From assembly GCA_039707465.1 (NCBI GenBank), contig CM077649.1, forward strand, positions 17,813,001 to 17,877,000: a DNA stretch of 64,000 nt, given 5' to 3'. Of the stretch, positions 1-56,602 are shown in pieces. The position numbers and the translations under genes are program-made. A model generated the notes under the pieces. The model was not told the origin of the DNA, ran no database searches, and saw nothing but the letters and a program-made list of their open reading frames with translations. Source of the stretch: Rhabdophis nuchalis. Its lineage: Eukaryota > Chordata > Lepidosauria > Squamata > Natricidae. Numbering within the stretch: the stretch's first letter is position 1; the number at the start of each line of letters is the position of its first letter.

Positions 1-1533
1 GGCCAGTTGTTCGCCCCCAATGGCCAGTGTTGGACTTATCTGGCTGAACCGGGGTGCCGGAAACCACAGCCACTCGGTCTTCGCCGGGTTGAGCCTGAGT
101 TTGTTACTACCCATCCAGATCCGTACGGCCTCCAGACACCAGGATAGCACCTCGACGGCATCGTTGGGGTGGTTTGGGGTGGATATGTACAACTGAGTGT
201 CATCAGCATATAGATGGTATTCCACCCCAAAACCGCGGATGATCTCACCCAGCGGCTTCATGTAGGTGTTGAACAGGAGCGGCGAGAGGACCGACCCCTG
301 AGGAACCCCACATGTGAGGAGCCTCGGGGACGACCTCTGCCCTCCTGCCAACACCCATTGCGACCGACCAGAGAGGTAGGACGAGAACCACCGTAAAATG
401 GTGCCTCTCAGCCCCAACCCCCCCAATCGGTGCAATAAGATACCATGGTCGATGGTATCAAAAGCCGCTGAGAGATCTAATAGGACAAGGATAGAGGAAC
501 AACCTCTATCCCGTGTCCTCCAGAGATCATCCACCAACGCGACCAATGCTGTCTCGGTACTGTGACTGGGCCGGAAGCCGGACTGGCGTGGGTCTAGATA
601 ATCAACTTCCTCCAGATGTCAGGGAAACTGTTGAGCCACCACACTCTCAACAACCTTCACTAAAAAGTGAAGGTTGCAGACGGGACGATAGCTCTCTAAT
701 AAAGCTGGGTCCAGGGATGGCTTCTTGAGGAGGGGCCTCACCACCGCCTCTTTCAAGGCGGTGGGCAAGGACCCCTCACTCAGAGATGAATTCACAATAC
801 CCTGGAGCCAGCCTCGTGTCACCTCCCAGGATGCCAGTACAAGCCAGGAAGGGCACGGGTCCAATAAACATGTGGTGGCTCTAAGGTTCCTCCTCAACCT
901 GTCCATATCCTCGGTAGTAACAAAGTCAAACTCCTCCCAAGGTGTTATCTCAAGACCAGCACCGGACACCTCGACCGGATCACTAGTGGAGGGCATCTCG
1001 TTCCGAATCTGAGTGATTTTGTCCTGCAGAAAAACTCCAAATTCCTCTGCTCGACCCTGCAGAGGGGCTTCCCGCAGCCTCAAATGCAAGAGGTAGCGGG
1101 TCACCCCAAACAGGGCGGCAGGGCGGTTTTCCGCGGATGCGATAAGGGTGGCACAATACTCACGTTTGGCCACTCTTAGCGCCACTAAATAAGTCCTAAT
1201 ATGGTCTCTCACTAGTGTTCGGTCAGATTCGGATCGAGAAGATCTCCACCTACTCTCTAGGCGTCTCTTACGGCGTTTCATCTCCCGAAGCTCCTCGGTA
1301 AACCAAGGAGCCTGGGTGACTCGATGCCGCATGAGAGGCCGCAAGGGCGCGACTCGGTCCAAGGCCCCCGTGGCCGCACTATACCATGCGGCCACTAGAT
1401 CCTCAGTCGAGCCGTGGGACAGGGACACAGGTACTGGCCCAAGCTCCCTCTGGAACCTTTCTGGGTCCATCAGGCGCCTGGGGCGGAACCAACTCGGTGT
1501 CTCCGGTTCCGCCTCCCCGCGGTGGGGTGTGAC
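1..1533 (-). mobile_element. L2/CR1-group LINE, reverse transcriptase region, cut by window edge
   Basis: Read on the minus strand, one frame runs from about 1533 to base 1 with a single in-frame TGA at 619-621. It covers the linker between endonuclease and reverse transcriptase (WFTEELREMKRRKRRLE), the RT entry (RPLLKKPSLDP, ESYRPVCNL), the DPRQSGFRP and [10 protein letters not shown] blocks, [14 protein letters not shown], and the catalytic YADD encoded at 199-210. These are the hallmarks of the L2/CR1 group of non-LTR retrotransposons. The 5' side ends at a TC/TG microsatellite and the 3' side lies beyond the window. The frame is far better preserved than other LINE copies here, suggesting a fairly young insertion. 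The exact family name (L2 or CR1-L3) needs a library search. Confidence 0.88.
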
Positions 1534-1591
<58 letters not shown>

Positions 1592-1597
1592 TGTGTG
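1534..1597. repeat. (TC)n(TG)n microsatellite
   Basis: A TC run passes directly into a TG run at the 5' boundary of the antisense LINE. Long Arg/Glu or Ser/Leu open frames here are translations of this repeat. Confidence 0.95.
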
Positions 1598-1682
1598 ATA
1601 TCAAAGCACTTGGTCTGCTCAAATATGGGAGGGAGCATACTGCTTCCCTCCCATATTTGGGCATATCAGGTGCTTTGATATA
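1597..1682. repeat. Imperfect palindrome, about 40-bp arms
   Basis: The arms begin GATATCAAAGCAC and end GTGCTTTGATATA and meet around GGGAGGGAGCATACTGCTTCCCTCCC, written here as two halves GGGAGGGAGCA and TGCTTCCCTCCC. The fold has a few mismatches. No clear target duplication is visible, so it could be a short hairpin MITE or a local inversion duplicate. Confidence 0.7.
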
Positions 1683-1718
1683 ACACTTACTTATTTCTTT
1701 GGCTCAGATGATAAAGGA

Positions 1719-1870
1719 GGAGAGCTTGTGGCTTAGTGGCTAATACAGCTGCCTAGCATGTAAAAACAGCCCAGGTTCAAATCCCAGTAAGGGTATGGCT
1801 AGCTGATGAGAGCTAAATAGCTTGAAATAGATCTATACTAATCTCCCTTTATATAGTTATCAGCACAAAT
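1719..1870 (+). mobile_element. tRNA-derived SINE carrying a hammerhead ribozyme motif
   Basis: The head has Pol III-like boxes: an A-box-like TGGCTTAGTGGC near 1729 and a B-box GGTTCAAATCC near 1774. It is followed by the body CCCAGTAAGGGTATGGC and then a 47-nt hammerhead fold (1797-1843). The same family occurs three more times between 55.3 and 56.1 kb. The 3' side runs into an AC/TG array. Related ribozyme-bearing SINE-like elements are known in schistosomes (Sm-alpha); the family here is identified only by its structure. Confidence 0.7.
1797..1843 (+). ncRNA. Hammerhead ribozyme-like fold, copy 1
   Basis: Stem I is GGCTAG (1797-1802) with CTAATC (1838-1843), one mismatch and one wobble. 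The conserved core CTGATGA is at 1803-1809 and GAAA at 1824-1827. Stem II is GAGCT/AGCTT around an AAAT loop; stem III is ATAG/CTAT around AT. The predicted cleavage position is after A1837. All invariant core bases of the CUGANGA/GAAA consensus are present, but the two-base stem III loop and the stem I mismatch mean activity is doubtful for this copy. Confidence 0.6.
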
Positions 1871-1922
1871 GCAACACACACACACACACAAACACAGTGT
1901 GTGTGTGTGTGTGTGTGTGTGT
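1871..1922. repeat. (AC)n then (TG)n microsatellite
   Basis: CA repeats followed by TG repeats, forming a small potential hairpin next to the SINE 3' end. Confidence 0.9.
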
Positions 1923-12559: not shown

Positions 12560-14925
12560 CAGCCTGTAGTTAGGAAAAAAAGATGAAACACATAATGGAA
12601 TTGGTTTTCTTTGGCCATGGGAGTTTTGATTTTATTAGGGCTATTGGCTTTTGTTGTGTTTACATCCATTATTATTGTAAACCACGTGGAGTTTTTGGAA
12701 CTAGTTAGTACTGGAATACATGAAATGAAAATATTTTGTTTGCTGTGCTGCTCTTCATTCAATTTGATGATACCGTGGAATTTTTCATGTGCAAGACTGA
12801 ATAGTTATTACTGTTAACAATATCAACAATAAGCACAACAACAAAAGCAGAATTTTAACAAGATATGGATTGCAATAAATTTATTTACTTCATATACTAG
12901 TTACGGACTGAAGATAAAAGGGAGAGAGGAGTGGAAAAAAATCCACAACTCCAGCAGGGGGCAGTAGGCTTCCATAGGCCGAAAAGCTTATATTGTAGGA
13001 GTCATACATTATTTTGTACCCTCAGTTTAGTGTTAAGCTTGGAAACATCATAAAATTCATGCTTTTTATCTTCTCTATAGAAGGCTGTTTGTCTGTTTTA
13101 ACCCCAAATGTACAAGTTCATTTAGCTATTTCCATTTAAGCAGGTAATGAATAAAACTTTTTGAAATTCTACAGTCCTCGTGTGCATTTTAGCTTACATC
13201 CCAATACAGTATTCAAATGGAATTCCATTTTTTTTTCTTTTTCGGAGTAATTAAGCTTTTCTATAGAGAAGCAATTATCTAATAAATGACCTGAACAGTG
13301 CTGGATTAAAATGAAGAGATACTCTCTGTCTAGTTGGTGGCCCAACAATAATTTGTAAGGACAAAGACAGATTTTGAATAGCTAATAAAGTCTAATCAGT
13401 TTTGAAACCATGGAAGCATTTAATAATAACATAGTCCAGGTCCTAATAATTTTTAGCAGCCACAGCCATATTCAAACCGCTATGACTGAAAGCATTCCAG
13501 ACTGCCAGTCTATTCGTTTCTAAAACATGTACAATGAATATTTATATGTAATTTGAATACTTTTTCCTTGTTTTTCTCTTTTTGGAATATATCCGTAATA
13601 CTATAATCATTGATATGTTTATATTAATGTGAACTGAGAGAACTTTTGGAGAACATTGTCCAATCTTTGTGCATTAAGCTGCCTTCACGCTGTCAAGGGA
13701 TAAATATCCTTTGAAGCAGATTGCACTTCCATGAAAAATAGAGTTTGTTTATTTGATTATTTATTCATTCATTTCAATCTTGAGAATGCCAATTGCTTGA
13801 TAGGAGCTTCTGGAAAGCTTTCATATAAAAGAAGAAAAATAAAGGTGAATTTTAAAACTTTGAGTCTTTTAATTTGTAAATTTTTAATTTTATTTTTAAC
13901 TGTACATTTAGTCAGGGAGAAGCTGCAGAAATCTATAGAACAAATTAATTATTATTAATAATTAATAATAAAGTCAAACAAAGCATGGGAGGGAAGAAAA
14001 CTACCCTTTCTAAGATGGAAATTGAATGCAAATAAGGATTAAAAAAAAAAGAGCAGAGACGAATACAGCACATGTAAACTGAATGCAGTACAAATAATTG
14101 TATTGATCAAGTGAGAAATACATGAAGTATGGTCTCTCATACAGTGTTTATATTAACAAAATAATTATTGAGTGCATAGAACATTTCTGTATTATGACTT
14201 CGTATGATAGGTTTACCCAGAGCATGTTAAAATTGTGTCTGAGTTAATCCAGTATAATTTTAATTTTGAGTCAACCTCCATGATTGAGTTTGTGGAAACA
14301 ATCAAATTTAAATCATAATACTAAAACTAAATGCTGACGCTAGTATAACGTGAAGATTTGGTGAATGCTGGAGAGGGCAAACTAGCCTACATGAAAGATC
14401 AAATGAAGAACAGAAATAAAGGCATGGTAAGACAAAGTATTGCATTGCCAGTACTTTAAAAAACAGCAGGCAAAGCAGATTAGAACAAGACCTAACAATG
14501 TCTGAGAACAGGAAAATTGAAGAAAGAGACCGAGGGGCTAATTCTGGCTGAACAAGGCAAAGCCTTAAGGACAAAAAGTTATAAAGTCAGAATTGAGAAG
14601 ATGGCAACAGGCAAAATATGTTGTCTCTGCAAAGAAACTGAACAAATAGAGACTACCTAGTTAATTCCAGCGAGAACAGACTGACAGTAAAAACAGCATA
14701 GCAAAATAGCAGCAATGGTGCTTTGGAACCTCTGCAGGAAACACCATTGGCCTGCAAGTGAGAACTAGTGGGACCACAAAATAGACAAAGTAATATAAAA
14801 TGAAGGAGCTAAACTGTTCTTCAACTTCTCTTTCTCTCTTATATGCTCTCTTATATATCTTGCGGGGGGGGGGGGATCACTTGTGACAGAGAGGATTCAA
14901 ACTGTTTCTGCTTCAGTGATCTTGA
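12560..14925. other. AT-rich sequence; weak LINE-like trace at 14400-14800
   Basis: Mostly unrecognised. Between about 14440 and 14800 the plus strand in broken frames resembles the post-RT region of a non-LTR element (a KAKQIRTR-like start, then Lys/Cys-rich words), but too weakly to classify. A ten-base G run lies at 14864-14874. Confidence 0.35.
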
Positions 14926-14929
14926 TTAT

Positions 14930-15722
14930 TTTGTCACTGATTTTGTCACTGCCGTGGCCAGGGAGGCCTTCTATCAGGTTCACCTGATACGCCACTTGCG
15001 CCCGTTTCTGGATCGTGGCGCCCTACATACAGTCACTCAAGCTCTTGTCATTTCTCGCCTGGACTATTGCAATGCTCTCTACATGGGGCTTCCCTTGAGA
15101 TGCACCCAGAGGCTCCAGTTGGTGCAGAATGCGGCCGCGTGGGGGATCTTGGGAGTTTCAAAATACTCCCATGTAACACCTCTCCTGCGCGAGCTGCACT
15201 GGCTGCCGGTAGCCTTCCGGGTGCGTTTCAAGGTTTTAGTGACCATATTTAAAGCGCTCCATGGCAGCTGGCCTGGTTATCTGTAGGACCACCTACTACC
15301 ACATACCTCCATTCGACCTGTCCGCTCCCACAGGGAGGGCCTCCTTAGGGTGCCGTCTGCCGGTCAATGCCGGTTGGCGATGCCCATGGGAAGAGTCTTC
15401 TCTGTGGCAGGCCCTGCCCTCTGGAATGACCTCCCCCGAGACATTCGCACTATCACCGACCTTCACCTCTTCCGCCGGACACTGAAAACATATTTCTTCC
15501 ATATGGCCGGCCCGGCATTGCTGCTATAGCTATGCTATTTTTAGAGTTGGGTTTTAAATTAAATTGGTCTTTTAGCACGGGCTAAATTATTTAATTTTAG
15601 TTTTAACTTTTGTAGAATTTTGTATTGTTTGTATTTTTGTATTTTTAAATTCCTGTGCGCCGCCCTGAGTCCCATTTTGGGAGGTAGGGCGGGATAGAAA
15701 TCTAATAAAGTAAAGTAAAGTA
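14930..15722 (+). mobile_element. L2/CR1-group LINE, 3' 790 bp
   Basis: The plus strand encodes FLDRGALHTVTQALVISRLD, YCNALYMGLPLRCTQRLQLV and TPLLRELHWLPVAFRVRFK in one frame up to a stop at 15284-15286; the remaining codons continue in another frame. The 3' UTR ends GCCGCCCTGAGTCCC and a GTAAA repeat tail. Confidence 0.93.
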
Positions 15723-22929: not shown

Positions 22930-23606
22930 TACAGGAAGTCATTGGGTGAGATAATCTACCACCACAGGATGAGGTACCATTAGTATGCTGATGATACTCA
23001 ACTTTAAATCTCTATCCTCATGACCAAGCGATGCTGTCACTGTCCTCTCATGGTGTCTAGAGATGGTGGGGATCTATACAGAGGACAATAGACCATTAAT
23101 GAACCCTGGTAAGACCAAGTGGATTAGGGTGCATGGAGCCTCAGAAGCTAGGACTTTAATATCATTATATGTGGTTGCACCAACCCAGATAGAAAGTCCG
23201 TATAACTTGGGGGTTCTTCTGGGTTTACAACTCCTGCTTGAAGAGCAGGTGATAGACATGGCTAGGAGAGTCAGGCAACTTTGTGTTGTATACCAGTTAT
23301 GCTTCTTCATGGATTAGGAGTCCCGTGGTCATCTCATGCTTAGGCTATTGTGAATATATATGCTATACACGGGGCTACTCTTGAAGAGTATTAGGAAGCT
23401 TCAGCTGTATTCAGTGTAGAATGCAGCTGCTCAGGCAGTTCTTGAGGTCTCTAGCATGACTCATGTTACACTACTGTTTCACGAGCTGCATCAGTTTCTG
23501 GTTGCTGTTTCCAGGTCCAGTGCAAAGTGTTAGTTATTACCTTTAAAGTCCTTCATGGCAAAGATTCATGGTATCTGAGGAGCCATCTCAACCCAATGGG
23601 AGAGGT
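22930..23606 (+). mobile_element. Older L2/CR1-type LINE fragment
   Basis: GTATGCTGATGATACTCAAC encodes the YADDTQL motif. Further on are the KTKW, LGVLL and KVLHGK words of the RT C-terminal half in broken frames. It is much more diverged than the other copies of this group. Confidence 0.7.
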
Positions 23607-23710
23607 TGTTGTGAAATCCAAAACATTAAAATATAGAAATGCAAACATGCAACAACAATTTAGCTTTGAATCAAAAAGGTTTATTTTTCCATGGTTATTT
23701 CACACAAGTG

Positions 23711-24315
23711 GGCATGTGTCTAGGATTGATATGGAAAGAATGACATATTTTTTGAGATTTCAGAATGTTTTTGAGCAACCTGGTGAATGCCTCCCTGATC
23801 TTATGAGCACAATTTTAGCAGACTATTTACAAAAACCTAAGGATGAGATCAGGGGGGACATTGACCTAGCCTATAGAATTAACTCAGCATATGCCAGGAT
23901 AAATGAAGTGCCTAGAGAGATACATGTGAAATTTGTTAGAAGGTCAACCAGAGAGGAAATTTTGAAGGCGCAGAGAGGGAACCCCTTAATTTACCAACAA
24001 AAAACGGTCACTATCTTGAAGCAGATTCCTAGAAAGATTCGAGAAGCAAGACGGAAATTTTCCTTCTTGTCTAAAATTGTATTTGATCATGGGATTTGGT
24101 TCAAGTGGGTGACACCCGAAGGGATGCTGGTGTTCTGGGAAGGAGGAAGAGTGAGGATTAAAACAGTTGTTGAGGCGGAAGCCTTTCTTAAAAAACATTC
24201 CTCTATCCTGGGGGAAGATCCAGGGGGGACAGAGGGGGCCACGGCCCCGCCCGCTCGGGGCCAGGGAGGAGAAAAAGAAGATACAATAGCCAAGAGACTT
24301 AGATCTAAAAAATAA
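23711..24315 (+). pseudogene. L1 ORF1p-like RNA-binding protein, C-terminal two-thirds
   Basis: ORF1p of L1 is a trimeric RNA chaperone that coats LINE RNA. What is visible is the RRM-like core (NEVPREIHVKFVRRSTRE) and the C-terminal domain (QIPRKIREARRKFSFLSK; VRIKTVVEAEAFLKKHS). The frame is open to its natural stop but lacks the N-terminal coiled coil because of 5' truncation. By chance it is also continuous upstream with the last codons of the older LINE (23527-23606), giving a 262-codon chimeric frame that is not a real gene. Confidence 0.75.
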
Positions 24316-37161: not shown

Positions 37162-37814
37162 GGGCAGTGCACAGAAAAATAAAAACCACAATACATACAT
37201 ATAATCTAAAATCAAATTAAATAATAAAATCTGTGCTAAGAAAATTAAGACCATTAAAATATTAACTCTAAAAACCCTTAATCTATGTCAGGCCGGCCAG
37301 ATGGAAGAAATGCGTTTTAAGCATCCGACGGAAGAGGCGTAGGTCAGTAGTGGTGCGAAGATCGGGGGGCAGGTCTTTCCAGAGAGTCGGACCCGCCACA
37401 GAGAAGGCTCTTCCCCTGGGAGTCACCAGCCGGCATTGACCAGACGGCACCCTGAGGAGGCCCGCCCTGTAGGAGCGGACAGGTCGAAGGGAGGTATGTG
37501 GTAGGAGGCGGTCTCGCAAGTAGCCAGGACCCGTGCCATGGAGTGCTTTGAAGATGGTAATTAACACCTTGAAGCGCACCTGGAAGACCACAGGTAGCCA
37601 GTGCAGCTCGCGCAGGAGAGGTGTTACCGGGGAGTACCGTAGGACTCCCAGAATCCCCCACGCGGCCGCATTCTGCACCAGCTGAAGTCTCTGGGTGCAT
37701 CTCAAGGGGAGCCCCATGTAGAGAGCATTGCAGTAGTCCAGGCGGGGCATAACGAGGGCTTGAGTGACCGTGCGTAGGGCGTCCCGATCTAGAAAGGGCG
37801 TCCCGATCTAGAAA
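37118..37814 (-). mobile_element. L2/CR1-group LINE, 3' 700 bp, antisense
   Basis: The minus strand 37750-37283 is one open frame of 155 codons: RLDYCNALYMGLPLRCTQRL, TPLLRELHWLPVVFQVRFK, GTGPGYLRDRLLPHTSLRPV, LFRRMLKTHFFHLAGLT. At the 5' truncation point a 19-bp unit is tandemly repeated (37777-37795 and 37796-37814). Confidence 0.93.
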
Positions 37815-44431: not shown

Positions 44432-46419
44432 GGACTTCCTGTTCCGCTTCTGGCGGCAACGGACGAACTCTGGGGTTCGTCCGCCGCTTTGTACCTCTTT
44501 CTGCCCCCAACGGGGCGGGGCACCCCTTTTTTGGGGGGGGGGGCTCTGTAGGGCTGGCTTGCCTGGGCTGGTCTATCCTGGCGGTAGCTGGGAAGTGGCC
44601 CGGGTCCTCAGCCTAGGAGAAAGGGGTCATGCTGCGGGGGGCTTGGTTCCCTTCGCCAACGGAGGATGGTAACATTTCATCACCGGGAGAGAGCTGAAGG
44701 CGGATCGGAAGCCTTCCGGGGCTTTGGCGGCGAGAGGGAGAGTGAGTGCTTTTAAAACTATTTTTTTGCTGGCAGCCTGGATTGAAAGAACTGTGGAAGG
44801 GGGTGTTTGTTTGCTAAACCCCCCCTCGGATTAACAGCGGCGGTTAGAAATGGCTCCTCGTTGCGGGGAAGTTATTTTGTATCCGGCTTTTTTTCTTTCA
44901 AGCAAGTGAAAGTAATTTACGGCTTGCCTTTACACAATGTATCTAAGTCCGGCTGGCTTGAAACAATTGCTCTTTTGTCATTTTCTCCTGCTGGCTCTCA
45001 GACTGGGCGGTGGAAGATGGTTGCCCTTTGTTCCTGAATGACTATTTTTGTTTGTGGAAAAGTACCAACGTCTCTTTGTGATTTGGACTGCCTCTCTCTA
45101 TTAATGAAGAAATTCTTGGACTGATTGATTCCCTCTCTGAAGTGCCTTCTTTGTTTGAATAATTGATTCTGCAATTTGTTTCTCTTTGGGGGTTTGACCT
45201 GGACTTTGACCTGGACTCTGTCCTCCTGACTTGCTGCAGCAGCCCCACCCAAAAAGCGCCATTTTAGTGGCACGGATTTTAACAGCTCACCATGGCTTCT
45301 ATCACATCAGAACTGGCAGGATTGGAAAGAAGAATGACAACTTTGGAAGAAGTGTTACAAACCTTGGTGCAGGAAATTAAAGGTTTAAGACAAGATAATA
45401 AGGATTTCAAACAGGGACTTATGGAAACACAGAAACAACTGAAGGAGAATACACAGAAGACCGAGGAATTGGAGGGGGGGCTGGCTGGGGCAAAGGGAGA
45501 ACTTAAAAATGTTAAAACTGAAGTTGGAGAATTAACTGGGCATATGTCAAGGATGGATTTTGAAAGGATGTCATATTTTTTAAGATTTCAGAACGTTTCT
45601 GAGGTAGATGGTGAATGTCTTCCTGATCTCATGAGTACAATTTTAGCAGAATATTTGCATAAACCCAAAGATGATATTGACCTAGCCTACAGAATAAATT
45701 CTGCATATTTCAGGATAAATGAGGTACCCAGAGAGATACATATTAAATTTGTTAGGAGGTCAACCAGAGAGGGAATTTTGAAGGTGTAGAGAGGTGGTCC
45801 GTTAATTTACCAGCAAAAAGAAGTCGCTATCTTGAAGCAGATCCCTAAAAAAATTAGAGAGATGAGAAGGAAGTTTTCCTTCTTATCTAAAAAATTGTTT
45901 AACCACGGGATTTGGTTTAAGTGGGCGATGCCTGAAGGGATGTTGGTGTTCTGGGAAGGAGGAAGAGTTAGGATTAAAACAGTTGTTGAGGCAGAAGCCT
46001 TTCTTAAAAAACATTCCTCTATCCTGGGGGAAGATTCAGGAGGGGCAGGGGGGGCCACGGCCCCGCCCGCTGGGGGCCAAGAAGGAGCACAAGAAGATAC
46101 AATTGCCAAGAGACTTAGATCTAAAAAATGAATTTGTTTGTTTTTTATTAGCTCAATATAACTTTTTAGCTGGATGTTTGTATATGACTGCCAGCATAGA
46201 ATTTAGAATTTAGAATTTATGATGTATGCACTCACTTCCACCTTGTAGCATATTGGAGAATGTATTATCAATGTTTTATTAAGAGGCCCTGGAGGGGCCG
46301 ACGATTCCGACCTGAAAGTTCTCAAAATTTCTTTGTATCTCACCTTACCCTATTCCCTTTGGGTTTTTTTGGAAAAAATTGTAAAATCCAATAAAAAAAT
46401 TATTGATTAAAAAAATATA
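44432..46419 (+). mobile_element. Full-length ORF1-only L1-derived element (HAL1-like), copy 2
   Basis: Inserted in an L2/CR1 tail with the target duplication TATAAAAATAT at 44421-44431 and 46420-46430. From 5' to 3': a GC-rich leader of about 860 bp starting GGACTTCCTGTTCCGCTTC, ORF1 at 45292-46131, a roughly 260-bp 3' UTR with GGGGCCGACGATTCCGACC, AATAAA signals and an A-rich end. There is no ORF2. The 3' UTR matches the copy at 23.7-24.6 kb, so the architecture is that of a family, not one deletion. Mammalian HAL1 has the same plan. Confidence 0.85.
45292..46131 (+). pseudogene. L1 ORF1p-like RNA-binding protein with one nonsense codon
   Basis: 280 codons from ATG to TGA, interrupted by a single in-frame TAG at 45787-45789, where the sister copy has CAG. 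Residues 1-85 form a heptad-like coiled coil (LAGLERRMTTLEEVLQTLVQ; TQKTEELEGGLAGAKGEL). The RRM core follows (FERMSYFLRFQNVSEVDGEC; NEVPREIHIKFVRRSTREG) and then the C-terminal domain (IREMRRKFSFLSKK; GGRVRIKTVVEAEAFLKKHS), the order expected for L1 ORF1p. This start was chosen because it precedes the whole coiled coil and lies just after the GC-rich leader. ORF1p packages LINE RNA and needs an ORF2p from elsewhere to move. Confidence 0.85.
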
Positions 46420-55106: not shown

Positions 55107-55156
55107 ACATACATACATACATACATACATACATACATACATACATACATACATAC
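55107..55156. repeat. (CATA)n microsatellite
   Basis: About 12 perfect units. Confidence 0.97.
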
Positions 55157-55291
55157 GTGTTACAACACCCTGGTAAGCCCCAATTAAGGGAGGAAGCAAA
55201 GCTGCTTTCCTTTTCTGTCTTTCGGCTCATCACAAGAGACAGAAAGCTATTTGTTTCATTGCCTTTTGCTTACATTTGTGTTGTGTTTGTG

Positions 55292-55337
<46 letters not shown>

Positions 55338-55375
55338 TAGTTTTATGAGCTGATCAATAAATTAAATTAGAGAGA

Positions 55376-55422
55376 GACCAGGATAGATCTATTTCGAGCT
55401 TATTAGCTCTCATCAGCTGGCC
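55376..55422 (-). ncRNA. Hammerhead ribozyme-like fold, copy 2 (best copy)
   Basis: On the minus strand: stem I GGCCAG with CTGGTC (one G-U pair, six pairs), core CTGATGA, stem II GAGCT-AATA-AGCTC (five perfect pairs), GAAA, stem III ATAG-AT-CTAT, then C as cleavage base. The predicted cut is after the C complementary to G55382. Every conserved core position of a type I hammerhead is present. Stem III with a two-base loop is minimal, as in retroelement hammerheads thought to act best as dimers. Confidence 0.72.
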
Positions 55423-55590
55423 ATACCCCTTACTGGGATTCGAACCGGGGCTATGTTGCATGCAAGGCAACGTAATTCTTGGCTTGCTGTCTGGATGGTC
55501 TCTAGTGATGAGCCGATAGGCAGTAAGGGAAACAGTATGTCTCCTCCCTTAATTGGGGCCTAATAATAACAGGTTGTTGTGAAACAATTA

Positions 55591-55610
55591 CATATATATA
55601 TATATATATG
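55591..55610. repeat. (TA)n array
   Basis: Marks the border between two repeat units; similar TA seams are at 56064-56081, 56896-56929 and 57140-57156. Confidence 0.9.
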
Positions 55611-55787
55611 AGAGAGAATATTATCACAGCTCCTGTTCAGAGGTCCCTTTAAGGGGAGGAGACTTAACGTCATCCCTCTCTGCCCTTTGACTCAACCTAG
55701 AGATCATCCAGACAGAGAACCAAATAGATTACTGCTGTGTGACATTTTTTAGATATGTGTTATATTTTTAAGGGCTGAAAATAAAGA

Positions 55788-55834
55788 GACCAGGATGGAT
55801 CCATTTCAGGCTTATTAGCCTTCTTCAGCTGGCC
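55788..55834 (-). ncRNA. Hammerhead ribozyme-like fold, copy 3
   Basis: Minus strand: stem I GGCCAG/CTGGTC, core CTGAAGA (position 7 is variable in the consensus), stem II AGGCT-AATA-AGCCT, GAAA, stem III ATGG-AT-CCAT, cleavage base C opposite G55794. Stems II and III differ from copy 2 by paired changes that keep base pairing. Confidence 0.65.
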
Positions 55835-55987
55835 ATACTCCTTCTACTGGATTTGAACCGGTGCTTTCCAGCATTTGAGGCAAGCCTCTCTATGCCTTGA
55901 GCTAACACATATCTAAACAATGTCACACAGCAGTAATCTATTTGGTTTGCTGGAAAGCACCGGTTCAAATCCCAGTAGAAGGAGTAT

Positions 55988-56034
55988 GGCCAGCTGAAGA
56001 AGGCTAATAAGCCTGAAATGGATCCATCCTGGTC
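55988..56034 (+). ncRNA. Hammerhead ribozyme-like fold, copy 4
   Basis: Plus-strand counterpart of copy 3 with identical sequence: GGCCAG 55988-55993, CTGAAGA 55994-56000, stem II 56001-56014, GAAA 56015-56018, stem III to 56027, predicted cleavage after C56028, CTGGTC 56029-56034. Confidence 0.65.
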
Positions 56035-56081
56035 TCTTTATTTTCAGCCCTTAAAAATCTAACATATATATATATATATAT

Positions 56082-56279
56082 GCTGGCATAGCTGGCTTCG
56101 GGGATTTTCCCGTGTATAAGGAGCAACTGGAAGCACCAAGCCGGAAGCACCAGCCTGAAGATGATGAATGAGATTTCATCGAAACGTCGTGAAGATACTA
56201 CCAATTCTATGTGGGAGAAAACCCGAACAACCAAAGACCTACATACAAACACCTGCGAAAACCTCAGAAAACAAACATA
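56082..56279 (+). mobile_element. Penelope-like or SINE-like repeat unit with CTGAAGA...GAAAC motif
   Basis: Starts TGCTGGCATAGCTGGCTTCG after a TA array, contains GAAGCACCAGCCTGAAGATG, a small hairpin GATGAATGAGATTTCATC and GAAACGTCG. Its middle is repeated in inverted orientation at 57290-57395. Classification as Penelope-like is inference from the arrangement. Confidence 0.5.
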
Positions 56280-56440: not shown

Positions 56441-56602
56441 TGTGTGTGGAAGCGAAGGCAGGGGGGAAGGAGCTGCCTTCCCGGCCGGGCTCCGCAGCTG
56501 AGGGGCGATGGAGCAGTTTGCGCGGTTTGCTCCATCGCCCCTCAGCTGCGGAGCCCGGCCGGGAAGGCAGCTCCTTCCCCCCTGCCTTCGCTTCCACACA
56601 CA
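56441..56602. repeat. Perfect palindrome, 75-bp arms, GC-rich
   Basis: 56441-56515 is the exact reverse complement of 56528-56602 with a 12-bp spacer (GTTTGCGCGGTT). Overlapping Ser/Pro/Gly-rich open frames on both strands are a consequence. Confidence 0.95.

Follow-up and report, generated by a model that had tools for sequence, protein, structure and literature searches.

Between positions 55376 and 56034 of the window (the whole stretch of 64,000 nucleotides analysed here), the preliminary description had placed three complete type I hammerhead ribozymes, which raises the question of whether these motifs are genuine RNA structures and what kind of element carries them. A structural scan for the hammerhead layout, conducted on both strands of the whole window with limits looser than the three matches found, recovered exactly those three places and no other full type I layout; as a control, 100 dinucleotide-shuffled windows gave 3 matches. 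Each of the three (copies A, B and C) has a 6-bp stem I, CTGANGA, a 5-bp stem II, GAAA, a stem III and C17, and all, with their 15 pairs complete, display the features of the type I class, namely CUGANGA, GAAA, a U before a cuttable H17, and three stems, open at stem I. Their stem II and stem III sequences were as originally given. The copies, together with a decayed one (copy 1), are located as follows:

55376..55422, minus strand: hammerhead copy A, stem II GAGCT/AGCTC, stem III ATAGATCTAT (layout scan and Rfam HH9)
between 55382 and 55381, minus strand: predicted cut of copy A
55788..55834, minus strand: hammerhead copy B, stem II AGGCT/AGCCT, stem III ATGGATCCAT (layout scan)
between 55794 and 55793, minus strand: predicted cut of copy B
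55988..56034, plus strand: hammerhead copy C, identical to B, inverted (layout scan and Rfam HH9)
between 56028 and 56029, plus strand: predicted cut of copy C
1796..1842, plus strand: decayed hammerhead copy 1, with A at H17 and one C-A mismatch in stem I (Rfam HH9)

Since copies B and C are the same at 47/47 nucleotides and inverted relative to each other, they are not independent and the three copies amount to two distinct sequences. These two differ at 7/47 positions, one being N7 of CUGANGA and the other six making up three compensated pairs, of which stem II has two and stem III has one. When seven random changes were placed on the 35 stem, N7 and loop-II positions, an outcome with at least three pairs hit on both sides and all 15 still pairing occurred at a frequency of 3.6e-5. 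The claim that the stems of three copies had changed on both sides thus holds for three compensated pairs, and has to be reduced to two independent sequences.

The expectation that an Rfam hammerhead model would match above threshold was not borne out: no match reached the gathering score in the window or in 20 genomic loci. Wherever any hammerhead family matched, Hammerhead_HH9 (RF02275) scored best, at 24-35 bits against its gathering score of 52. The highest HH9 score was that of copy A (35.2 bits, E=8e-7, 1301 bases searched), followed by genomic locus L051 (28.6 bits, E=1.6e-5) and copy 1 (24.2 bits); copy C reached 24.0 bits only in a search confined to 111 bases, and the 1301-base search that gave copy A gave no HH9 match to B or C. 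Single-copy folds were no more stable than shuffles (z of -0.18, -0.27, 0.52 and 0.19), and single-copy stability is uninformative on the hammerhead. The strong evidence for the putative ribozyme is comparative.

We therefore turn to the genome (1.92 Gb, 348 contigs). A 70-base DNA query returned no match in a search that skips very common words, hence patterns were used. A core pattern that leaves stem II free and requires a palindromic stem III gave 8,564 exact genome matches and a pattern joining the end of the tRNA-like head to the hammerhead start gave 8,764, both with 0 control matches. Searches of viral and prokaryote collections, made with two patterns, had 0 matches. In the genome, 2/20 arbitrary 10-kb stretches contained part of the element. 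Among the core matches listed (about 100, tallied by eye), 6 contained a stem II mismatch, 9 a G-U end pair and 6 the AGGCT/AGCCT stem II.

For the analysis of covariation, 86 of 99 matches were used (11 partial ones and 2 in the overlap of L037 and L038 were left out), of which 74 were distinct; with two window rows these form an alignment (A2) of 76 rows from 37 loci and the window. Its loci carry a selection bias, in that L021-L050 came from a pattern fixing two G of stem I and the G of its outer part, and L051-L058 were picked because they are clustered. As many as 96.4% of the pair cells in the 76 rows pair, compared to 93.7% in shuffles, and slid structures reached 49.2% at most. Doubly changed, compensated cells numbered 41 versus 9.8 in shuffles, a value attained by 0/500 of them. 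Double changes occur in 5/15 pairs, a number that alone is not beyond shuffles (64/500), nor is the number of pair types (391/500). The alignment contains GAGCT/AGCTC, AGGCT/AGCCT and GGGCT/AGCCC in stem II, CTAG/CTAG, CCAG/CTGG and CCAA/TTGG in inner stem I, and ATAG/CTAT and ATGG/CCAT in stem III; stem I covaries too (pairs 23-63 and 25-61), and its outer part adds four more pairs past a UAU/U internal loop, 3/4 of them with double changes. On a tree of about 110 nt of flank, which is weak and whose rows are related copies, 15 pairing-to-pairing double changes were reconstructed, compared to 0-2 for slid pairs and to at most 8 in 200 random re-pairings (0/200 reached 15). The core is intact in 47/74 distinct rows (broken in 27/74), and 33/74 have the core and all 15 pairs; the catalytic letters are mostly kept, with A13 and A14 in 74/74 and G12 in 66/74. 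The proposed test of stem covariation thus came out in favour of the hammerhead, and, as judged from these comparisons, the predicted fold is real and under RNA-level constraint. A chance origin of the motif is ruled out by the covariation together with the genome counts.

In both window types, stem III and its two middle letters form a perfect 10-nt palindrome, and the best fold of two copies is a canonical double hammerhead with a 10-bp stem III (-35.0 and -39.2 kcal/mol). In the predicted 339-nt circle, stems I and II have probabilities of 0.79-0.99 and stem III does not form. Amphibian retrozymes are described as having a weak helix III with a palindromic loop and as cutting efficiently only as dimers (PMC7229834). 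On the modelling, the hammerhead of the present element is likewise of the dimer type.

The anatomy of the repeat unit was clearest in L051, which contains two tandem units, 339 nt from cut to cut; the unit is 343 nt in L055 and 318 nt in L052. Numbered from the cut, it consists of u1 to about u48 (ending CA-rich), a body, a tRNA-like head and the hammerhead. The Rfam tRNA model (RF00005) matched L051 immediately upstream of its hammerhead over its full length (positions 1-71; 21.2 bits, E=0.026, below the gathering score of 29), and ARAGORN called 0 tRNAs in the window. By eye, the following stretches resembling the A- or B-box consensus were seen in copies A, B, C and 1:

1729..1739, plus strand: A-box-like, copy 1, TGGCTTAGTGG
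1774..1784, plus strand: B-box-like, copy 1
55436..55446, minus strand: B-box-like, copy A, GGTTCGAATCC
55849..55859, minus strand: B-box-like, copy B, GGTTCAAATCC
55962..55972, plus strand: B-box-like, copy C, GGTTCAAATCC

A dimer pattern gave 927 genome matches and 0 in controls. On contig C1, a satellite array (218577902 to at least 218591329) contains at least 37 successive matches spaced 343-347 bp apart, with two gaps of 688, and among the matches listed a second tandem run of six, 347 bp apart, lies near 194.30 Mb. The element is therefore both a dispersed repeat and a satellite. Its tandem units run through the whole head and body, and a single 5' start at the head, as in a tRNA-derived SINE, was not found, with scattered 5' ends and the tandem arrangement speaking against it. 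Of the preliminary assignment to a tRNA-derived SINE, what stands is a covarying type I hammerhead beside a probably tRNA-derived head (RF00005, sub-gathering); the unit of 318-343 nt is more than a SINE and occurs in tandem and in inverted pairs. The suggestion of a retrozyme-like element agrees with this anatomy, that is, a non-coding unit within about 170-400 nt with a type I hammerhead, both tandem and dispersed. Separately, L023, L024, L025 and L033 are four near-identical copies with common flanks, in which the unit seems to be carried inside a larger repeat.

The ends of the dispersed pieces bear on how the element inserts. In the window, the unit pieces are:

1631..1878, plus strand: piece with copy 1, u126 to u46
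55153..55303, minus strand: piece from u17 to u188, 77.6% to the L052-type unit
55329..55474, minus strand: piece with copy A, u249 to u50, 93.8% to the L055-type unit
55468..55604, plus strand: piece from u65 to u196
55680..55874, minus strand: piece with copy B, u261 to u120
55953..56038, plus strand: piece with copy C, u267 to u9 (a looser alignment extends to 56071)

The piece at 55329..55474 abuts that at 55468..55604 by its 5' end, forming a 5'-5' pair with 3' ends at both preferred sites described below. We used 102/120 pieces for the analysis of ends, 12 having been dropped by locus (L038 below 1450, L024, L025, L033 and L034) and 6 for being under 50 nt. There were two preferred 3' ends: 47/98 fell in u40-55 (u48 itself accounting for 25) and in many cases continued into (CA)n, 20/98 fell in u175-200 (u189 accounting for 7) and in many cases continued into repeats of the TA, GATA or GTAT type, and 31/98 lay elsewhere. 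The 5' ends were scattered, with only 1/99 no more than five bases from the cut site. If cut linear RNA were the usual template, 5' ends would be expected at that site, and this idea was rejected on the count given; since 5' ends are not piled up there, the genome gives no sign that cutting happens.

Abutting pieces were joined 5'-to-5' in 24 cases, 3'-to-3' in 6 and on the same strand in 2. Both 3' ends lay in the preferred regions (here u40-66 and u166-204) in 12/24 of the 5'-5' pairs; in 9 of the others an end fell outside these regions, and in the remaining 3 an end was truncated at the edge of the locus. The two kinds of 3' end were combined in 11/12 fully classified pairs (p=0.003 against independence), a small sample in which some pairs share a locus and not all are independent; the copy A piece belongs to these mixed pairs. 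At the 12 pairs no target duplication was recognisable, and their outer 70-nt flanks had no common word of at least 7 letters (one 6-mer was shared). The simplest reading would be that both cut target strands prime reverse transcription, at two sites of the RNA, and that the cDNAs meet. Two further observations concern junctions. The same TA-repeat-ended sequence, GCTGGCATAGCTGGCTTCGGGG, adjoins insertions at window 56076-56110 and in the left flank of L029, as if TA repeats that terminate another repeat family were favoured for insertion. Directly upstream of copy 1, window 1603-1676 forms a perfect-looking hairpin (Rfam mir-4788-like, 46.6 bits, gathering score 91); it probably represents two unit pieces joined 5'-to-5', and not a microRNA.

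The motif, its covariation, the copy number, the tandem arrays, the two preferred 3' ends and the 5'-5' junctions are what we observed, and their best overall explanation, with a probability of roughly 0.8, is a non-autonomous retrozyme of the metazoan type with a tRNA-derived head and a dimer-type hammerhead. In the cycle that we infer for it, the tRNA-like internal promoter or read-through would drive transcription of genomic copies, with multimeric RNA coming from those in tandem; hammerheads would pair two by two via the palindromic stem III and cleave the multimers to a unit size of about 340 nt, and the units may be circularised by an RNA ligase of the host. Circular or uncut multimeric RNA would then be copied by a Penelope-like enzyme that starts internally, at the CA-rich site near u48 when primed from one strand of the cut target and near u189 when primed from the opposite strand, and the two cDNAs would be joined by their 5' ends. 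The core of this account, a hammerhead retrozyme with a tRNA-like head, we hold to be very likely, and Penelope-like, two-sided insertion is somewhat better than an even bet. A fuller version, in which an amniote tRNA-headed retrozyme related to the hammerheads of amniote introns inserts by Penelope-type two-strand priming at two RNA sites, leaving 5'-joined twins, is put forward tentatively and is on balance doubtful.

Penelope-like elements are named as candidate movers of metazoan retrozymes (PMC7229834), and a review states that metazoan retrozyme repeats contain no conserved motif revealing the mobilising enzyme (PMC7761336). The Anolis Penelope-like protein PAc cuts and extends both strands in vitro, prefers AT-rich DNA and begins reverse transcription within an AC-rich stem loop; its hammerhead is dispensable for insertion in vitro, and in that study no RNA reads were seen to end at the cut site (PMC11167929). 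The study also reports no difference in start site between the strands (PMC11167929); in our element the two sides differ, which weighs against carrying the mechanism over unchanged. The unit itself, at 318-343 nt, is too short for a Penelope-like coding region (reverse transcriptase and GIY-YIG endonuclease). A GIY-YIG search of the genome that scored 150/1267 candidates found no Penelope-like gene. Its one match is an SLX1-like exon. Together with the genome size, this exon indicates a vertebrate host and nothing narrower. Open frames of the window at 619-1638 (minus), 14843-15286 (plus), 37283-37750 (minus), 23527-24315 (plus) and 45292-45789 (plus) resemble decayed LINE protein sequences. 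A clue to the enzyme that moves metazoan retrozymes is given by the preference for two 3' ends and by the 5'-5' twins.

Three other accounts of these data were considered. Recombination could have made the arrangement, with arrays arising by unequal crossing-over and inverted pairs by later rearrangement instead of two-strand insertion; the C1 array, with its spacing of about 344 bp, is most easily made so, and copies B and C look like an inverted duplication. However, 5'-5' pairs at separate places in the genome have the same two unit positions as their ends (11/12, in a small sample of 24 pairs), and we consider this account unlikely. Still less probable is an ordinary tRNA-derived SINE moved by a LINE, in which the hammerhead, taken from the end of a retrozyme or Penelope-like element, would be a passenger that is now idle. 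The tRNA-like head and simple-repeat 3' ends are indeed SINE features, the 5' ends lack a cut-site signature and more than a third of the cores (27/74) are broken, whereas compensated changes recur between subfamilies, tandem units cross the whole head and body in a way that a SINE with one 5' end does not, and a SINE leaves the two preferred 3' ends and the 5'-5' pairs unaccounted for.

Finally, the paired changes might reflect DNA-level correction of short inverted repeats (template switching or gene conversion) and not selection on RNA. The element is rich in inverted copies and the stem III palindrome could be kept perfect in this manner, yet the arms of stem I covary across about 35 nt with the core between them, outer stem I does likewise, and the catalytic letters are kept in most rows, so that we give this origin very little credence. 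The retrozyme with a tRNA-derived head remains the reading that we prefer.

Among known systems, schistosome Sm-alpha, for which Pol III promoter boxes have been reported, comes from an invertebrate and is to our knowledge unrelated in sequence to the present element. The two are alike in being non-autonomous and in having a type I hammerhead (Sm-alpha is named in PMC6155905). The closest systems in design are the metazoan non-LTR retrozymes, above all those of amphibians (axolotl, with units of 331 and 353 nt, and newt satellite 2), whose tandem units are 330-350 nt and whose hammerheads are of the dimer type (PMC7229834). As described there, they share with our element the type I hammerhead, a non-coding unit of about 330-350 nt, the dispersed and tandem arrangement, and a weak stem III with a palindromic loop; in contrast, the tRNA-derived head, the 10-nt palindrome, the two preferred 3' ends and the 5'-5' pairs were seen here, their motifs number tens of thousands and ours thousands, and the axolotl retrozyme is supported by RNA evidence, the present element by DNA comparisons (PMC7229834). 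PAc (Poseidon) of Anolis is similar in its hammerhead, tandem arrangement, internal AC-rich starts and use of both strands, but is autonomous, with reverse transcriptase and GIY-YIG endonuclease, whereas our unit has no coding region (PMC11167929). The squamate tRNA SINEs Squam1, Squam2 and Squam3 have a tRNA-related head too, and Squam SINE-derived tandem satellites have 70-290-nt units (PMC10702118, PMC7983390); the hammerhead sets our element apart from Squam1-3 as described, a distinction drawn from published descriptions, and our element may be identical with a Squam family, Squam2 above all.

Animal retrozymes with type I hammerheads are known, with Penelope-like elements as their suspected movers, and, as judged from the text returned, none of the papers brought up by full-text literature searches on hammerheads, retrozymes and squamate SINEs dealt with a reptilian retrozyme or hammerhead SINE. 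What we call new is a putative hammerhead retrozyme of the dimer type that has a tRNA-derived head and inserts in a two-ended pattern. Should the host be a reptile, dimer-type hammerhead retroelements would extend from amphibians to amniotes and be joined to a tRNA-like promoter; if the proposed insertion is true, the 5'-joined twins would preserve in the genome the traces of target-primed reverse transcription from two sides. Thousands of copies in subfamilies that differ by compensated pairs provide natural mutants for asking what purpose hammerhead cleavage serves. Beyond the hammerhead block, window 56480-56600 contains a long GC-rich inverted repeat with a short centre, as far as seen unrelated to the unit.
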